From positions 1-55,092 of the forward strand of contig JAJFIX010000016.1 of assembly GCA_021774575.1 (NCBI GenBank): DNA of 55,092 nt, given 5' to 3'. The notes under the pieces were generated by a model, which saw only the letters and a list, made by a program, of their open reading frames with translations, searched no databases and was not told the DNA's origin. The position numbers were made by a program, and so were the translations under genes. The stretch's first letter is position 1. Each line of letters begins with the position of its first letter. The DNA comes from Alphaproteobacteria bacterium (GTDB taxonomy: Bacteria; Pseudomonadota; Alphaproteobacteria; UBA6615). Of the stretch, positions 3,494-53,437 are shown piece after piece.

Positions 3494-3551
3494 TCACGGA
3501 TACGGGGACATCACGGATACGGGGACATGTTACTCACGGATACGGGGACAT
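3494..3551 (+). repeat. three copies of an 18-bp direct repeat
   Basis: The unit TCACGGATACGGGGACAT occurs at 3494-3511, 3511-3528 and 3534-3551. The first two copies share one base; copies two and three are followed by GTTAC. The repeats sit between the island's last gene and the GC-rich racemase gene. They may mark an island edge or a residue of a mobile element; no transposase is nearby. Confidence 0.8.
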
Positions 3552-3614
3552 GTTACTTATCTCAGGCTATACGGGAATTCTTAGGTAGTCTTTCGCGAGT
3601 GAAGCCGGGTGGTC

Positions 3615-14582: not shown

Positions 14583-14618
14583 CCAGGTAACCGCTATTGG
14601 CCAGGTAACCGCTATTGG
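14583..14618. repeat. 18-bp tandem duplication upstream of accA
   Basis: CCAGGTAACCGCTATTGG is repeated head-to-tail at 14583-14600 and 14601-14618. It lies 16 bases before the accA start, in the leader. Confidence 0.85.
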
Positions 14619-14765
14619 CGGAAGATGCGGCGTGTTCGGGTAAAAAGTCAACCTCTTCGCCGGGGGCCGCTCACCAAGGGAGTGTGGCTAACAGCGGGGC
14701 AAAACGGACCGGAATCGATGGCCGTGCTGGGGTAGCCGGAAAGTATGAATGCCCATTGGGCTCAA

Positions 14766-35361: not shown

Positions 35362-37278
35362 TCAATTCACCGGAATTGCTAGGTTAATATTCATCCCATA
35401 GGCTTCAAATCCATCGTCGCCGATCCCGTCGTAATTTCCGCTCACGGCAAATCGAATGCCGGCATCCGAGGACATCGAAAACCCGATTTCTCCTTTGCCG
35501 CGGATTTCGCCCGATCCTGAAATGAATTGGTCAGTTAGAACGCCATTGTCGCCGGCAAAATTCCAAACCGCTTCTATCGAGGCATGGGGGGCGAATGTCA
35601 TTCCACTCTCGTCGGTGACTGAGTAAAATATTTTCGGGCCAAATTTTGCCTGACCTAGGGTTATCGTTTGGCTCGGTATGGTCGCGCCCAGGCTGTCGGT
35701 AAAGCTCTTTTGCTCGTCACGAATATAGGCGACCGTGATGCTCGGCCGAAACGTCAAATTGTCCACGCGGTGGTCGCCGGTTAGGCGCCCGCGCGCCAGC
35801 CAGCGCTCTGTTTCAAAATTGTCGGAATTTGTTGAGGCGGTATCGACCGTATTGTGGGACAGCCCCCAACTTGTTTGGCCGTCGAAAAATAAATTTTCAG
35901 ACAGTCGGGCCGCAATATTGGGCCCGACCATCCAGCCGATACCGTCGACCTCGGTTTTCAACGCATCATTGTCCTGCTGCATCCAATCAAACTGTGCGAC
36001 CATTCCAAGCATCAAAGATCGGCTGACCACGTAATCGACACCGAGGTAACCGATGGCAAACTGGCCGTCGCCGCCGAGACTATCGTTGAAGGTTTTGATG
36101 TGGCCTTCGACCCAGACGTCTAGGCCTGTCGGATCGTTACCGTGCACAGTAACGCCGCCAGCGCGATCAAGCGACACACGATAGGCGTCACGCCTTGCCG
36201 CCGACTGTTCGATTTGGCGAAGACCGGTCGAAAATGATGCGGTCAATTGTCGTTCGGAAAGCAAGCGGTCAAAATCGACCTGCAAGCCAAACGGTGAATT
36301 TGGGGCGAGACCATTAAACCCGCTCACGGTTGCGCCTGCCGCCGCCGAGGCATTGTTCAGTCGCCCTATTGACCGATCGATGCCCGGCCCATTCGCCAAA
36401 ATGAGGTCGGCGCGCCGGTTCATGAAACGGGCGGCGGCCTCACTGGCCTGCGGGTTTCCGATGGTCAAAATAATGCGGTTTTGCAGGCGTTCGGGTGAGA
36501 GACTCGAATTTGCAAAAACGCCATCATTTAGCGTGGGGTTGGGTGTCGAAAAGCCCATCGCAAATTGGTTGCCGCGGGCCGCATTCAACGCTGCTACTGC
36601 TTGCGCGTTTAATGGAATTTTGATGAACATGCCTTGCATGGCGTTAGTTACGGTCGCCGTCCCATAGGATGCACCGTTGGCTAGGTCGTCGCGTATTCCG
36701 GTCAAACCGGTTCCACCAGCCAATAATGTCGCTATCGGTGTCACGACGTCTTTGATCTGCAGGGAATGGGTTCCTACAACGTCATATGTATATATCTCCA
36801 ATTCAGCCGACACTATTGTGTCTGTATCGGGTACATCGAATACATGAAAACCGTAAAATGTTGTGAGGCCGGGCGTATTGGTTTGTGCTCTTGCTGTGAG
36901 GTAGTTTTGGTTGGTCGGACCATGAAACCCCAAATCGTTATACCAGCCGGAATCTACATATGTTGCGTCCACCAGCGGCTGGGCGCTAGAAGAGGACGCG
37001 CCGCCGACCACGGAAAATAGCAGAACCGAAACCAGGAAAAATGGGTTGGCAACATTCGACCTGGGCTGTGCCCCGTCCTGGTCGCCGCGACGGTACGGAC
37101 CCCAATGCCTCTCGACCGGAAAGAGGGCGACCGGAAAGCAGGCGACCGGAAAGCAGGCGACCGGAGAAAAGGAATTTCGGGTAAAAAAGTCGTGGAGAAC
37201 ATGACCGGCGACCGAAAAAATATGCAACCACCACGACACGGCGCGGCAACCCTTCGCCGCGAAAATATACGTACTCAT
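35362..37278 (-). CDS. autotransporter with extended repeat-containing leader
   Basis: This 638-residue protein ends in an autotransporter barrel (roughly the last 270 residues, from VWVEGHIKTFNDS to NINLAIPVN) of amphipathic strands. The passenger is about 170-200 residues, beta-rich (GFHVFDVPDTDTIVSAELE). The hydrophobic export signal (NPFFLVSVLLFSVVGGASSS) lies only at about residues 77-97; before it is a basic leader with FPVAC repeats from 15-bp DNA repeats. Long leaders occur in some autotransporters, but the expanded repeat may be a non-coding expansion if a later start exists; no ATG or GTG lies between. The C-terminus ends in Asn rather than a typical aromatic. Function unknown; surface protein. 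Confidence 0.75.
   Translation of the reverse strand: MSTYIFAAKGCRAVSWWLHIFSVAGHVLHDFFTRNSFSPVACFPVACFPVALFPVERHWGPYRRGDQDGAQPRSNVANPFFLVSVLLFSVVGGASSSSAQPLVDATYVDSGWYNDLGFHGPTNQNYLTARAQTNTPGLTTFYGFHVFDVPDTDTIVSAELEIYTYDVVGTHSLQIKDVVTPIATLLAGGTGLTGIRDDLANGASYGTATVTNAMQGMFIKIPLNAQAVAALNAARGNQFAMGFSTPNPTLNDGVFANSSLSPERLQNRIILTIGNPQASEAAARFMNRRADLILANGPGIDRSIGRLNNASAAAGATVSGFNGLAPNSPFGLQVDFDRLLSERQLTASFSTGLRQIEQSAARRDAYRVSLDRAGGVTVHGNDPTGLDVWVEGHIKTFNDSLGGDGQFAIGYLGVDYVVSRSLMLGMVAQFDWMQQDNDALKTEVDGIGWMVGPNIAARLSENLFFDGQTSWGLSHNTVDTASTNSDNFETERWLARGRLTGDHRVDNLTFRPSITVAYIRDEQKSFTDSLGATIPSQTITLGQAKFGPKIFYSVTDESGMTFAPHASIEAVWNFAGDNGVLTDQFISGSGEIRGKGEIGFSMSSDAGIRFAVSGNYDGIGDDGFEAYGMNINLAIPVN
37111..37170. 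repeat. four 15-bp tandem repeats in autotransporter leader
   Basis: Units of the form GGCGACCGGAAAGCA occupy 37111-37125 (variant), 37126-37140, 37141-37155 (both exact) and 37156-37170 (variant). On the minus strand they encode FPVAC-type pentapeptides. Confidence 0.85.
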
Positions 37279-46177: not shown

Positions 46178-46555
46178 TCAGCCGACAGCTTGCCTTGCGT
46201 GGCGGTGACGCCGCCCGGCGCCGTTCATCCGTTCCGTCTGTCTGGCCAATTGGCGGGCGGTTTTGGCAAAGCCCGTGCGAATGGCCAAGGTGAGGTCCTG
46301 ATTGGTCCCACCGCGGGAGTTCTCCCGGTGGATGGTTGCGCCCCGGTCGGGTAAATCAACAGCGATTGAGACCTGAAAATTCTTGCCTTGGCCCGGCCGT
46401 TTCGTTTGTGCCTGTATGGTCACCCGGCATGCGGTCATCCAGTCTTGAAACCGCGCCAGTTTGCCAAAACTCTCTCGGACGCTGTTTTCCAGGGATGGGG
46501 AGGCGGGGATGTCAGTAAAGGAGATCTGCAGGAGATCGGTTCTCGGGTCCATCAT
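46178..46555 (-). CDS. HPF/RaiA-like ribosome-associated protein
   Basis: The 125-residue product aligns in style with the sigma-54 modulation/HPF family: LQISFTDIPASPSLENSVRE, KLARFQDWMTACRVTIQAQ and FQVSIAVDLPDRGATIHRE. These proteins dimerize or silence ribosomes in stationary phase. The C-terminal part has basic stretches (RRHRHARQ). Two FNR-type boxes lie in the upstream divergent region, 110 or more bases before the start. Confidence 0.65.
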   Translation of the reverse strand: MMDPRTDLLQISFTDIPASPSLENSVRESFGKLARFQDWMTACRVTIQAQTKRPGQGKNFQVSIAVDLPDRGATIHRENSRGGTNQDLTLAIRTGFAKTARQLARQTERMNGAGRRHRHARQAVG

Positions 46556-46663
46556 TAGGGTGCATCTTCCTTTCGCTACGTATTTGGCGTTACACGAGCC
46601 ACTTTCTTCATATGGTGTGCCTCGGCCGATATCGAAATGATATTCCTAGATCGGCCAATCGCC

Positions 46664-46701
46664 ATTGATGCAAATCAACAAGATTGATGCAAATCAACAA
46701 G
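46664..46701. repeat. two exact 19-bp tandem copies
   Basis: ATTGATGCAAATCAACAAG repeats without a gap at 46664-46682 and 46683-46701. Each copy contains one FNR-type palindrome. Confidence 0.9.
46665..46697. promoter_or_regulatory. two FNR/FixK-type boxes in a 19-bp tandem repeat
   Basis: TTGATGCAAATCAA, a perfect TTGAT-N4-ATCAA, occurs at 46665-46678 and 46684-46697. Both lie in the exact tandem repeat 46664-46682 / 46683-46701. The position 54 to 86 bases before the ridA-like start fits a class II-type site there; the HPF-like gene on the other strand starts 110 bases away. Anaerobic or oxygen-dependent control of one or both genes is inferred. Confidence 0.75.
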
Positions 46702-46750
46702 AACGACTACATTTACGGCTCGGAAATCAATCTTGCAGGAAGAACCAAAA

Positions 46751-47146
46751 ATGGTCGAAAAAACCTATAACTCGCCGAACGGTATCCATACGCCGTTCAG
46801 TCAATATTCTCATTCGGTCACCGTTGAAGGGGCGCAAAAATTGATTTTTTGTGCGGGGCAAGTGGCCGGTGATGATGACGGCAATATTCTTGGGCCCGAG
46901 GATTTTAGCGCCCAGGGCGCATTGGTGATGAAAAACCTCGTCCGGGTGCTGACCGAAGCCGGGGCCACGCTCACCGATGTGGTTAAGCTGACCAGCTATG
47001 TCTGTTCGCCCCATGATGTGCCAAAGGTGCGTGCCCTGGTTAAAGAGCATTTTCCCGAGCGCCCCCCGGCCAACACGATCTGCGTCCTGCGTGGGCTGGC
47101 CCATCCCAATTATCTGCTGGAAATTGACGCAACGGCGGTGATTTAG
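46751..47146 (+). CDS. RidA (YjgF/UK114) family protein
   Basis: ATG 46751 gives 131 residues, after AGGAAG; TTG 46733 is less likely. Family features include GAQKLIFCAGQVAGDDDGN, AQGALVMKNLVRVLTEAGAT and the C-terminal EIDATAV. RidA deaminates reactive enamines and imines using an Arg in its PARSC-type motif. Here the region reads PPANTIC, with no Arg at the equivalent position, so deaminase activity is doubtful and it may belong to a divergent Rid subgroup. FNR-type boxes lie upstream. The stop overlaps the convergent transporter stop. Confidence 0.85.
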   Translation: MVEKTYNSPNGIHTPFSQYSHSVTVEGAQKLIFCAGQVAGDDDGNILGPEDFSAQGALVMKNLVRVLTEAGATLTDVVKLTSYVCSPHDVPKVRALVKEHFPERPPANTICVLRGLAHPNYLLEIDATAVI

Positions 47147-49810: not shown

Positions 49811-52800
49811 TTATGTCTCCTCGCCTGCTGGTTTTTCCGGCAGGCTAATCTCGGCGAGTTTTTCGTAGAGGGCGAACCGGCGCTCCAAATGGGCCTTTGC
49901 CGAAATCATCAGATCCGCATAGCGTTCCGGGTCGCGGCGTTTGACGGCCTGGAAGCGGTTCTCGTTTTCGACCAAGGCATCAAGGGAAACCGTCGGCATT
50001 TTACTGTCGAGCTGCATCGGCTTCTTGCCCGCTTCAAACAATCGTGGGTCGTAACGGTAGAGCGGCCAATATCCGCTGTCGACCGCCAGGGTTTGCTGGT
50101 CAATGCCCAAGCCAAGATCATAGCCATGTTCGATACACGGCGAATAGGCGATAATGATCGACGGCCCGTCAAAGGAGGAGGCCTCATGAAAGGCCCGCAC
50201 GGTCTGGGCATCCTTGGCACCGAAGGCGACCGAGGCGACATAGACATTGCCCGACATGATCGCCAGCAGGCCGAGATCTTTTTTCGGCTGCGATTTTCCC
50301 GAGACGGCAAATTTGGCTGCCGAGCCAAGGGATGTCGCCTTGGATTGCTGGCCACCGGTATTGGAATAGCCTTCCGTATCCATCACCAAAATATTCACGT
50401 TTTGGCCGGAGGCGAAGACGTGATCGAGGCCGCCATAGCCAATATCGTAGGCCCAGCCGTCGCCACCGACAATCCACACATCCTTGCGCACCAGGTAATC
50501 GGCCAACTGGTCGAGACGGCTTGCGTCCTCGCCGGTTATGGTTTTGAGGGCCGCGCGAAGTTTCAACACCCGCTCGCGCTGGGCAAAAATTCCCGCATCG
50601 TCGCCTTGGTCGGCGGCAAGCATGTCGTTAACCAGGGTTTCGTCGAGGTCGCCGGACCGGCGTTCCAGAAGCGAGCGCGCCTGGGCGCTGTGCATATCGA
50701 TGGCCAACCGGTGGCCGAGACCAAACTCGGCATTATCTTCAAACAGCGAATTGGCCCAGGCCGGGCCGCGCCCGTCCTTGTTGGTTGTATAGGGGGTTGT
50801 TGGTAGATTTCCGCCATAGATCGACGAGCAGCCGGTCGCATTGGCAATCACCGTATGATCGCCATAAAGCTGTGTCAGCAATTTAATATATGGCGTCTCG
50901 CCGCAACCGGAGCAGGCGCCGGAAAATTCGAACAAAGGTTCAGCGAACTGGGACATTTTGACGTTCGACCGTAATTTCGTCCGGTCGGCCTCGGGGATTT
51001 CGGTAAAGAACGACCAGTTTTGCTTGTCGCTCTCACTGGCGAAATATTCGTGGGGCTCCATGAAAAGCGACCGGCGCTCGGGGTCGGCCTTATCGATGCC
51101 CGGACAGACGCTGACGCAAAGATTGCACCCGGTGCAATCTTCGTGACTGACTTGGACGGTGTATTTCGCCTCGCCGAATTCCTTGCCTTTATAATCCATC
51201 GCCTGGAAATTATCCGGCGCGTCGTCAAGGACCGCCGGTTCATAGGCTTTCACCCGGATGCAGGCATGGGGGCAGACCAGGGCGCATTTGTTGCACTGAA
51301 TGCACAGTTCCGGGATCCATTGTGGGGTCTCGATCGCTAGGTTGCGTTTTTCCCACTGGGTCGTGCCGGTCGGCCAGGTGCCGTCTACGGGAAAGGCGCT
51401 GACCGGCAATAAATCGCCGTCCCGGGAAATCATTTTTGCCGTCACTTCTTTGACGAAGTCGGGGGCGTCAACGGGCACCACCGGCGGCATTTCGAAGTCC
51501 CCGGTTACTTGGGCCGGCACGTCGACTTCTTCGAGATGGTCGATCGAGCTATCGACTGCGGCAAAATTCATTTCGACAATGTCGCGGCCCTTGCTGCCAT
51601 AGGACCGCTCGATGGCGCCTTTAATCTGGCGGATCGCCTCGTCTTGGGGGAGGACGCCGGAGATGCCGAAGAAACAAGCCTGCATCACCGTGTTGATGCG
51701 CCGACCCATGCCGGTATCCCGGGCGACCTTGGTCGCATTGACGACGTAGAATTTGAGTTTCTTGTCGATGATTTCGGCCTGCACCGATTTCGGCAGCTTG
51801 TCCCAGACTTCTGTCTTGTCATAAGGGGAGTTGAGCAGGAAGGTGCCGCCGGTCTCGACATGTTTGACAATGTCGATTTCGAACATGAAATTAAACTGAT
51901 GGCAGGCGACAAAATGCGCCTGCTCGATCAAATAGGCCGAGCGGATCGGTTGCGGGCTGAACCGCAGATGCGAGATCGTCACCGCCCCGGCTTTTTTCGA
52001 ATCGTAGACGAAATAGCCCTGGCTGAAATTATCGGTATTTTCCGAAATAATCTTAATTGAGTTTTTGTTGGCACCGACAGTGCCGTCGGAGCCGAGACCA
52101 AAGAAGATCGCCGTTTTTACGTCGCCGGTCTCGGTGCTGAAATTGGCATCCCATTTGAGCGAAAGATAGGTCACGTCGTCGGCGATGCCGACGGTAAAGC
52201 CCGACTTGGGACGGTCGGCATCCATTTCATCGAACACCGATTTAACCATACCGGGGGTGAATTCTTTCGACGATAGGCCGTAGCGGCCGCCGATAACCAG
52301 CGGATCGATGGCGGTCGGGCGCAGCCCTTGGGACTTGGCCTGGGCCAGGGCGGTGACCACGTCTTGGTAAAGCGGCTCGCCGAGGCTGCCATGTTCCTTG
52401 GTCCGATCAAGCACGGCGATCGATCTGACCGACGTTGGGATGGCGGCAATCAGCTTATCCATCGAAAATGGACGGAACAGACGGACCTTGACCACCCCGA
52501 GCTTGGCGCCGCGATGGTTCAGATAATCGACGGTCTCGTGCACCGTATCGGCGCCCGATCCCATGATGATGATGAGTTTTTCGGCTTCCGGATGGCCGAA
52601 ATATTCAAACAAATTATACTGGCGCCCGGTCAGGGTGGCGAACTCATCCATCACTTGCTGGACGATATCGGGGCAGACCTCGTAATAGGGATTGCGCGCT
52701 TCCTGCATCTGGAAAAAGCTATCGGGATTTTGCGCCGTGCCCCGAATTTTCGGATCATCCGGGGTCAGCGCCCGCGAGCGGTGGCTGGCGACCAAATCAT

Positions 52801-53437
52801 CGTCGATAATGGCGCGCAGGGTGTCATCGTCGAGAAACTCGATTTTATTGACCTCGTGGGAGGTTCGATAGCCGTCGAAAAAATGCAAAAACGGCACTCG
52901 GGCGCGTAAGGTTGCCGCCTGGCCGATGCAGGCAAAATCATGGGCGATCTGAACCGAGGAAGAGGCCAACAGGGCAAAGCCGGTTTGACGAACCGCCATC
53001 ACATCCGACTGGTCGCCAAAGATCGACAAGCCATGGGTGGCGACGGTTCGGGCCGACACATGCATGCAATAAGGCGTTAATTCGCCGGCAATTTTATACA
53101 TATTGGGGATCATCAATAAGAGCCCCTGGGACGCGGTAAAGGTCGTCGTCAGTGCCCCCGATTGCAGAGCGCCGTGTACCGCGCCAATGGCCCCGGCCTC
53201 CGACTGCATCTCGACGACGGTGGGCACTTCGCCCCAGATGTTTTTACGGTCCTGGGCTGACCATTCGTCGGCCATTTCGCCCATCGACGAGGCCGGTGAA
53301 ATGGGATAGATGGCAATGACTTCGTTGGTCCGATGGGCCACCGAGGCGACCGCCTCATTGCCTTCCATCGTCGTCAATTTGGATTTACTAGCTGAGACGC
53401 CATTTTTTGTGGCGTCGAGTTTTTCGACATCGGACAA
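49811..53437 (-). CDS. nifJ: pyruvate:ferredoxin (flavodoxin) oxidoreductase
   Basis: The 1208-residue single-chain enzyme oxidizes pyruvate to acetyl-CoA and CO2, passing electrons to ferredoxin or flavodoxin. Domain order is standard: N-terminal pyruvate-binding half (VASVAHRTNEVIAIYPISPAS; QSGALTTTFTASQGLLLM), domain III, a ferredoxin domain with two 4Fe-4S sets (CIQCNKCALVCP and CTGCNLCVSVCPG), a Cys-rich CSGCGETPY and the TPP domain (GDGWAYDIGYGGLDHV, EGYSNTGGQQSKAT). PFORs are oxygen-sensitive in many organisms. No nif genes are near, so a role outside nitrogen fixation is likely. Confidence 0.96.
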   Translation of the reverse strand: MSDVEKLDATKNGVSASKSKLTTMEGNEAVASVAHRTNEVIAIYPISPASSMGEMADEWSAQDRKNIWGEVPTVVEMQSEAGAIGAVHGALQSGALTTTFTASQGLLLMIPNMYKIAGELTPYCMHVSARTVATHGLSIFGDQSDVMAVRQTGFALLASSSVQIAHDFACIGQAATLRARVPFLHFFDGYRTSHEVNKIEFLDDDTLRAIIDDDLVASHRSRALTPDDPKIRGTAQNPDSFFQMQEARNPYYEVCPDIVQQVMDEFATLTGRQYNLFEYFGHPEAEKLIIIMGSGADTVHETVDYLNHRGAKLGVVKVRLFRPFSMDKLIAAIPTSVRSIAVLDRTKEHGSLGEPLYQDVVTALAQAKSQGLRPTAIDPLVIGGRYGLSSKEFTPGMVKSVFDEMDADRPKSGFTVGIADDVTYLSLKWDANFSTETGDVKTAIFFGLGSDGTVGANKNSIKIISENTDNFSQGYFVYDSKKAGAVTISHLRFSPQPIRSAYLIEQAHFVACHQFNFMFEIDIVKHVETGGTFLLNSPYDKTEVWDKLPKSVQAEIIDKKLKFYVVNATKVARDTGMGRRINTVMQACFFGISGVLPQDEAIRQIKGAIERSYGSKGRDIVEMNFAAVDSSIDHLEEVDVPAQVTGDFEMPPVVPVDAPDFVKEVTAKMISRDGDLLPVSAFPVDGTWPTGTTQWEKRNLAIETPQWIPELCIQCNKCALVCPHACIRVKAYEPAVLDDAPDNFQAMDYKGKEFGEAKYTVQVSHEDCTGCNLCVSVCPGIDKADPERRSLFMEPHEYFASESDKQNWSFFTEIPEADRTKLRSNVKMSQFAEPLFEFSGACSGCGETPYIKLLTQLYGDHTVIANATGCSSIYGGNLPTTPYTTNKDGRGPAWANSLFEDNAEFGLGHRLAIDMHSAQARSLLERRSGDLDETLVNDMLAADQGDDAGIFAQRERVLKLRAALKTITGEDASRLDQLADYLVRKDVWIVGGDGWAYDIGYGGLDHVFASGQNVNILVMDTEGYSNTGGQQSKATSLGSAAKFAVSGKSQPKKDLGLLAIMSGNVYVASVAFGAKDAQTVRAFHEASSFDGPSIIIAYSPCIEHGYDLGLGIDQQTLAVDSGYWPLYRYDPRLFEAGKKPMQLDSKMPTVSLDALVENENRFQAVKRRDPERYADLMISAKAHLERRFALYEKLAEISLPEKPAGEET

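Follow-up and report, generated by a model that had tools for sequence, protein, structure and literature searches.

Ribosome hibernation is usually linked to starvation or stationary phase, and to our knowledge the switch-on signals of many paralogues of the hibernation factor HPF are not settled. HPFcold was described structurally from Coxiella burnetii in 2026, in a paper whose available text cites an earlier pan-genome analysis of HPFs and whose main text contains neither 'FNR' nor 'anaerob' (PMC13392368). In mycobacteria, the HPF paralogue RafH is induced by hypoxia through DosR, according to the accessible part of PMC10799931. Escherichia coli raiA is reported, in the portions available of two papers, to be FNR-repressed without oxygen (PMC8778775, PMC10502375). 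Table 1 of PMC2908626, the section of that source used here, lists the predicted alphaproteobacterial FNR/FixK/DNR core regulon and names no HPF, although its hypothetical-protein rows could hide one. Cold-shock response genes are FnrL targets in Dinoroseobacter, as stated in the part of PMC5398030 available, and an HPFcold gene could be among them.

Here we describe an alphaproteobacterial locus in which a doubled FNR-type site very probably serves as the promoter control of a short HPF gene from the HPFcold side of the family, predicted to be activated by FNR (class II) at oxygen loss. The window, i.e., the whole stretch of 55,092 nt that was analysed, contains the following features around this site:

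46178-46555, minus strand: short hibernation factor of the HPFcold side, 125 aa, monocistronic by position (PF02482 only)
46566-46573, minus strand: Shine-Dalgarno-like AAAGGAAG ahead of the HPF start codon, read from the sequence
46637-46642, minus strand: TATCAT, predicted as the -10 of the HPF promoter and located 22 nt past the proximal box, the sole TANNNT on this strand in 46556-46750
46664-46702, no strand assigned: exact 19-bp tandem duplication with both boxes (period-19 identity, Tandem Repeats Finder)
46665-46678, no strand assigned: FNR-type box TTGATGCAAATCAA, HPF-proximal; the spacing to the -10 predicts a centre at -41.5 relative to the HPF start
46684-46697, no strand assigned: second FNR-type box, identical to the first, centred at -60.5 relative to the HPF start if that prediction is right
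46684-46713, plus strand: weak possible Rid promoter TTGATG-N18-TACATT, its -35 being the 5' half of the second box (putative, a reading of the sequence)
46751-47146, plus strand: divergent Rid-family (PF01042) gene, 131 aa (PF01042 79.1 bits, cut-off 27.3)

Both boxes are perfect copies of the FNR-type palindrome TTGAT-N4-ATCAA. They lie 19 bp apart from start to start, with a 5-bp gap, inside an array of ~2.05 copies of the unit ATTGATGCAAATCAACAAG (100% match in Tandem Repeats Finder). The preliminary description had reported two such sites in an exact 19-bp tandem, 19 bases apart, and this is confirmed: only 0.03 matches to TTGATNNNNATCAA are expected in the 55-kb window, and two matches occurred in 0 of 100 shuffles. 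In the whole genome (3.50 Mb), nine perfect TTGATNNNNATCAA-type sites were found, against none for the reversed control pattern.

The position of the boxes points to the HPF gene. On the HPF strand, TATCAT at 46642-46637 is the single TANNNT between 46556 and 46750. The transcription start predicted from this -10 would lie at ~46630, which places the centre of the proximal box at -41.5, presumably the classical class II arrangement, with the -10 following the box at the class II distance of ~22 nt. In relatives, this spacing is likewise enriched (see below). A consensus promoter scan of the locus found no -35/-10 promoter, which is expected for an activator-dependent promoter, yet gives no support either. 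Judged by this predicted geometry, the boxes fit the divergent HPF gene and not the Rid gene.

A short-HPF match was found in 16 of 95 relatives and in 65 of 289 genomes of the class, this genome included in both counts; four of the 65 genomes gave weak matches only, which were taken as long HPFs. We scanned 250 bp upstream of the matched genes for the pattern TTGAYNNNNRTCAA, allowing at most one mismatch. For the class sample, 68 of the 74 match rows were used, excluding the row of this genome itself and five weak ones (E 2e-6 or higher) taken as long HPFs, and one of these 68 (L083) was not counted as it had only 35 bp upstream. The box was present in 20 of the 67 remaining short-HPF loci, 10 of them perfect, against 0-1 of 67 for each of four control patterns. 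Upstream of the long HPFs from the same genomes the box was found in 0 of 27 cases (27 of 29 match rows scanned, one of them over the 131 bp available upstream; a row that was a second fragment of an already included gene and the own-genome copy, scanned separately, were excluded). The own-genome long HPF likewise had no box upstream, the best site having 3 mismatches. On both grounds we rejected the housekeeping long HPF as the linked gene.

A second sample consisted of 80 named loci, with alpha and gamma labels taken from record titles, mostly of metagenome-assembled genomes. By these labels, the box occurred in 22 of 41 alphaproteobacterial, 15 of 33 gammaproteobacterial, 1 of 4 unspecified and 0 of 2 other loci, while six control patterns gave 0-2 in the 80 loci. 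Culturable relatives in which a perfect box precedes the short or HPFcold gene include Nitratireductor sp. XY-223 and Hoeflea poritis. After pooling of the samples and removal of duplicated upstream regions (147 reduced to 142), a box with at most one mismatch was present in 56 of 142 regions, against 2.7 expected from Markov sequences, and a perfect box in 27, against 0.13 expected. The preliminary description had linked the FNR-type box to a ribosome-associated factor, and these counts lend that link strong comparative support. A TANNNT started 20-24 nt past the box in 26 of 62 boxes (2000 shuffles: mean 3.9, maximum 11), with a peak at 21-24 nt; the other five-base bins from 0 to 39 nt past the box held only 0-5.

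After clustering at 80% identity, the box was found in 43 of 109 representatives (Fisher p 1.2e-5 versus long HPF). Looser clustering weakened the signal, to 30 of 83 representatives at 70% and 8 of 36 at 60%. The box rate was alike in HPF-only proteins (16/40) and HPF-plus-cold-shock proteins (21/55), as sorted by length and our own motif with no family search; four HPF-plus-extension relatives that were tested all had HPF and cold-shock domains. Among the other genomes of the same family, a single-protein search found a short-HPF match in only 2 of 23, both with a one-mismatch box 58-75 bp upstream. Since no box with at most one mismatch was found in 86 of the 142 relatives, including both Azospirillum brasilense loci, FNR control appears to be common but not universal. 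At the relatives lacking a box, control would have been gained or lost repeatedly, or other regulators would act.

Several side observations were made at these loci. In 33 of the 61 genomes with a short or HPFcold-type HPF, a search with this genome's long HPF gave nothing at E 0.001, and some of these may rely mainly on the short type for hibernation. Some neighbours belonged to clusters whose identity was taken from their representatives only. A cluster with an RtcB RNA ligase representative neighboured short/HPFcold genes at 7 of the 80 named loci (e.g., L180:994-2418, L235:3413-3829), and one with an archease representative in 3 of the 80; possibly, this forms an RNA-repair plus ribosome-protection neighbourhood. 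A third cluster, with a GGDEF diguanylate cyclase representative, was found near the short HPF in 6 of the 80 loci (e.g., L176:5090-6331), and all six carry an FNR-type box.

The call of an HPF-like gene in the preliminary description holds, with PF02482 at 42.1 bits (cut-off 23.7), and can be refined to a short paralogue of the HPFcold side. The protein is an HPF domain alone, and it scores below the cut-off of NCBIfam TIGR00741 (23 versus 40.9). Its predicted model has the HPF fold (beta-alpha-beta-beta-beta-alpha; pLDDT 83.8). Foldseek with this model gave 34 PDB chains at E 0.001 or better, of which 33 were HPF/RaiA/protein Y or ribosome entries, the exception being an LptDE chain. At the sequence level, the only solved-structure match at E 0.1 or better was HPFcold (9t0z, E 1.1e-8). 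The profile of its family matched HPFcold at 8e-37 and other HPF/RaiA chains at 3e-8 or weaker. Two Legionella loci were excluded from the structure alignment. We rejected HPFcold itself as the class of the protein, as the C-terminal cold-shock domain is missing, although it groups with the HPFcold side. Long HPF was rejected as well, as the C-terminal dimerisation domain is missing (125 aa, PF02482 only) and, in a tree of 41 rows, the 17 long HPFs formed a group of their own, apart from the window protein and the short/HPFcold proteins (support 100/100). The window HPF is very divergent (end branch 2.22; identity at most 36% in the tree and 39% in the local match), and where it belongs among the short HPFs is uncertain from the sequences. 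Because another contig of the genome carries the gene for a long HPF (194 aa), the window protein is an extra paralogue rather than the housekeeping copy. By analogy, it probably puts ribosomes to sleep.

Why the box is doubled is a separate question. The answer that we consider somewhat better than even is a replication accident, i.e., one working box was recently duplicated as a 19-bp tandem, with no function added. A recent slip-type duplication would explain why both copies and the spacer are identical. The window also holds three other short perfect tandem arrays (3494-3557, 14583-14619 and 37126-37165; periods 15-23), and for this reason the doubling may be accidental. In all, perfect arrays of period 14-40 numbered four in the 55-kb window (five rows, box array included), against 1 in 97 kb elsewhere in the same genome (32 stretches) and 3 across the 80 named loci (458 kb), which are small numbers; five shuffles gave none. 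Looked for in relatives, as the preliminary description had suggested, the exact 19-bp doubling was found in none of the 94 other genomes. Within 3 mismatches, the double arrangement occurred in 11 of 95 genomes, with 0 mismatches only here and 2-3 in the other ten, and its reversed control matched in 4 genomes. We therefore rejected the exact arrangement as a conserved device. Seven distinct relatives do have two boxes, but these lie 28-119 bp apart and none has the 19-bp spacing. The doubled binding proposed in the preliminary description is only a candidate, as two dimers whose centres lie 19 bp apart may not fit side by side. Against an accident, two boxes upstream of one short HPF recur, so that multiple sites may be useful, and the predicted position of the second box, -60.5, is close to class I positions.

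An FNR-type regulator might instead govern both divergent genes, with HPF activated and Rid repressed when oxygen falls, or both activated, as the preliminary description implied. We regard this as unlikely. In its favour, TTGATG-N18-TACATT on the Rid strand shares bases with the second box, but FNR half-sites resemble a -35, so that the overlap may be chance, and the promoter scan picked up neither this putative promoter nor any other. The Rid strand has no TANNNT 20-24 nt past the box, i.e., no class II -10; the only one downstream is TACATT, at offset 10. Moreover, a Rid-family frame was found near the short HPF in only 1 of 165 locus records (flanks ~0.5-3 kb, some records overlapping), and the genomes of the other 59 relatives searched gave no Rid match at E 1e-20. 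The single case, in Azospirillum brasilense ATCC 49958 (L223:2174-2479), is a Rid-family frame that precedes the short HPF by ~0.5 kb in the same orientation, and no FNR-type box was found at that locus. Because such a neighbour is so rare, the adjacency in the window is probably incidental. Promoter geometry and neighbour rarity led us to reject Rid as the main target, and the coupling of the Rid gene to oxygen loss that had been proposed earlier is unsupported. The Rid gene is probably not an FNR-activated target; at most, we infer, FNR would block the weak Rid promoter. As to the protein itself, the Rid-family call stands (PF01042 over the cut-off). It remains below the curated cut-offs of TIGR00004, the Rid detoxifying-hydrolase model (51.1 versus 106.25 bits), and of RutC (48.3 versus 169.1), so that we call it a Rid-family protein and do not assign it to the RidA imine deaminases.

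The absence of an FNR/FixK regulator, which would have spoken against the proposed control, was not observed: the genome encodes two FNR-type regulators. PF13545 had four matches, three over the cut-off. The two strong ones, L010 and L011, contain a CX2CX7C motif and one more Cys at position 128 or 127, and their recognition helix has ETVSR, so that both combine Fe-S cysteines with a DNA-reading helix that matches the site. We take CX2CX7C plus the distal Cys to be an oxygen-sensing cluster, and E..SR to read TTGAT, as in FNR. The best NCBIfam match of both is FnrL, below its strict cut-off. FNR genes often carry a box ahead of their own start, as does L011, with a perfect TTGAY-N4-RTCAA box whose end is 110 bp from the start codon. 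The third match looks GntR-like by reading and the fourth is below the cut-off. It is improbable, more so than joint control of both genes, that the boxes are read by another CRP/FNR member with the same DNA code, such as a FixK that does not sense oxygen or an NO-sensing DNR/NnrR. FNR, FixK and DNR sites are very similar according to the available part of PMC2908626, and a further regulator could be missing since the assembly is 96.9% complete; but both strong PF13545 matches among the four carry the cysteine pattern.

The degenerate pattern TTGAY-N4-RTCAA was found at 31 genomic places, against 5 for its reversed control. According to the ORF calls, 13 were intergenic, 16 lay in long ORFs and 2 in doubtful ORFs. 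The 16 in long ORFs look like chance, which is the one point in favour of functionless chance palindromes at our locus as well, a reading made very improbable by the 0.03 sites expected in the window, the -10 at class II distance from the proximal box and the recurrence of a box with the same -10 spacing in relatives.

Intergenic boxes of this genome are situated near a NarK-like transporter, a CBS-BON protein, a MauG/CCP-type cytochrome and an indolepyruvate decarboxylase-like enzyme. At L143/L144 (G000:C16:15837 and 15908), an MlaC-domain gene and a 496-aa frame with no Pfam match flank a pair of perfect FNR-type boxes spaced by 71 bp. Pyruvate:ferredoxin oxidoreductase is an oxygen-sensitive enzyme. 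A 1208-aa pyruvate:ferredoxin (flavodoxin) oxidoreductase (TIGR02176, 1766 bits) is encoded at 49811-53437 on the minus strand of the window, ~3 kb from the boxes, and fits a low-oxygen lifestyle. An FNR box for this gene was rejected, as none was found near it within one mismatch of TTGATNNNNATCAA.

At the predicted promoter, activation of the hibernation factor gene by FNR when oxygen is lost is a well-supported prediction, in which we infer binding, oxygen response, activation direction and ribosome binding. When oxygen falls, an FNR-type [4Fe-4S] regulator would turn active and bind the HPF-proximal box at -41.5. The bound regulator would then activate transcription from the TATCAT promoter by class II activation. 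HPF would subsequently park ribosomes and probably, like solved HPF/RaiA proteins, do so by obstructing the small subunit's decoding centre. The second box at -60.5, probably a product of the tandem duplication, may raise occupancy, serve as a class I site or do nothing.

Beyond this locus, it seems fairly likely from the upstream sequences that in many Alpha- and Gammaproteobacteria the HPFcold-side HPF is a class II FNR/ANR target, such that oxygen loss would directly trigger ribosome parking while the long HPF stays outside the regulon. This would be an anoxia-specific branch of hibernation, opposite in sign to E. coli raiA. The recurrent FNR-box promoter offers a testable trigger for one widespread paralogue, namely oxygen loss itself, and suggests when HPFcold-side proteins act. 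If true, respiratory control and translation shut-down would be joined in one regulon.

The preliminary description had called the link to oxygen loss a new regulatory theme. Term searches of the text available found no HPF under FNR-type control in PMC4999443, PMC6515984, PMC10454721, PMC7713065, PMC9104464, PMC8510549, PMC5398030, PMC3797731, PMC12542648 or PMC12977618, and no FNR-, FixK- or Anr-activated HPF in Proteobacteria was found among the matches listed from the open-access literature, as far as its accessible text extends. The theme is new only in part, because a hypoxia-induced HPF is known in mycobacteria (PMC10799931, accessible part).

Compared with these systems, and within the parts of the sources available, the locus shares features with each. 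It has the same binding site and regulator family as the FnrL/FixK core regulon of Alphaproteobacteria (PMC2908626). HPFcold of C. burnetii (CBU_0020, PDB 9T0Z) is the best structure match of the window HPF, but has a cold-shock domain that the latter lacks (PMC13392368). E. coli RaiA is also an HPF-family protein under the influence of FNR, but with the opposite sign, i.e., repression (PMC8778775, PMC10502375). RafH resembles the window HPF in being a second HPF paralogue, with low-oxygen induction known for RafH; it differs in phylum, in its regulator DosR and in being a two-domain, long-type HPF (PMC10799931). Hence, low-oxygen control of a hibernation factor is known as such. What our comparison of promoter sequences supports is its predicted operation here through an HPFcold-side paralogue with a class II FNR promoter, and more widely than at this locus, which, if true, would be a parallel to DosR-RafH in mycobacteria by another regulator.
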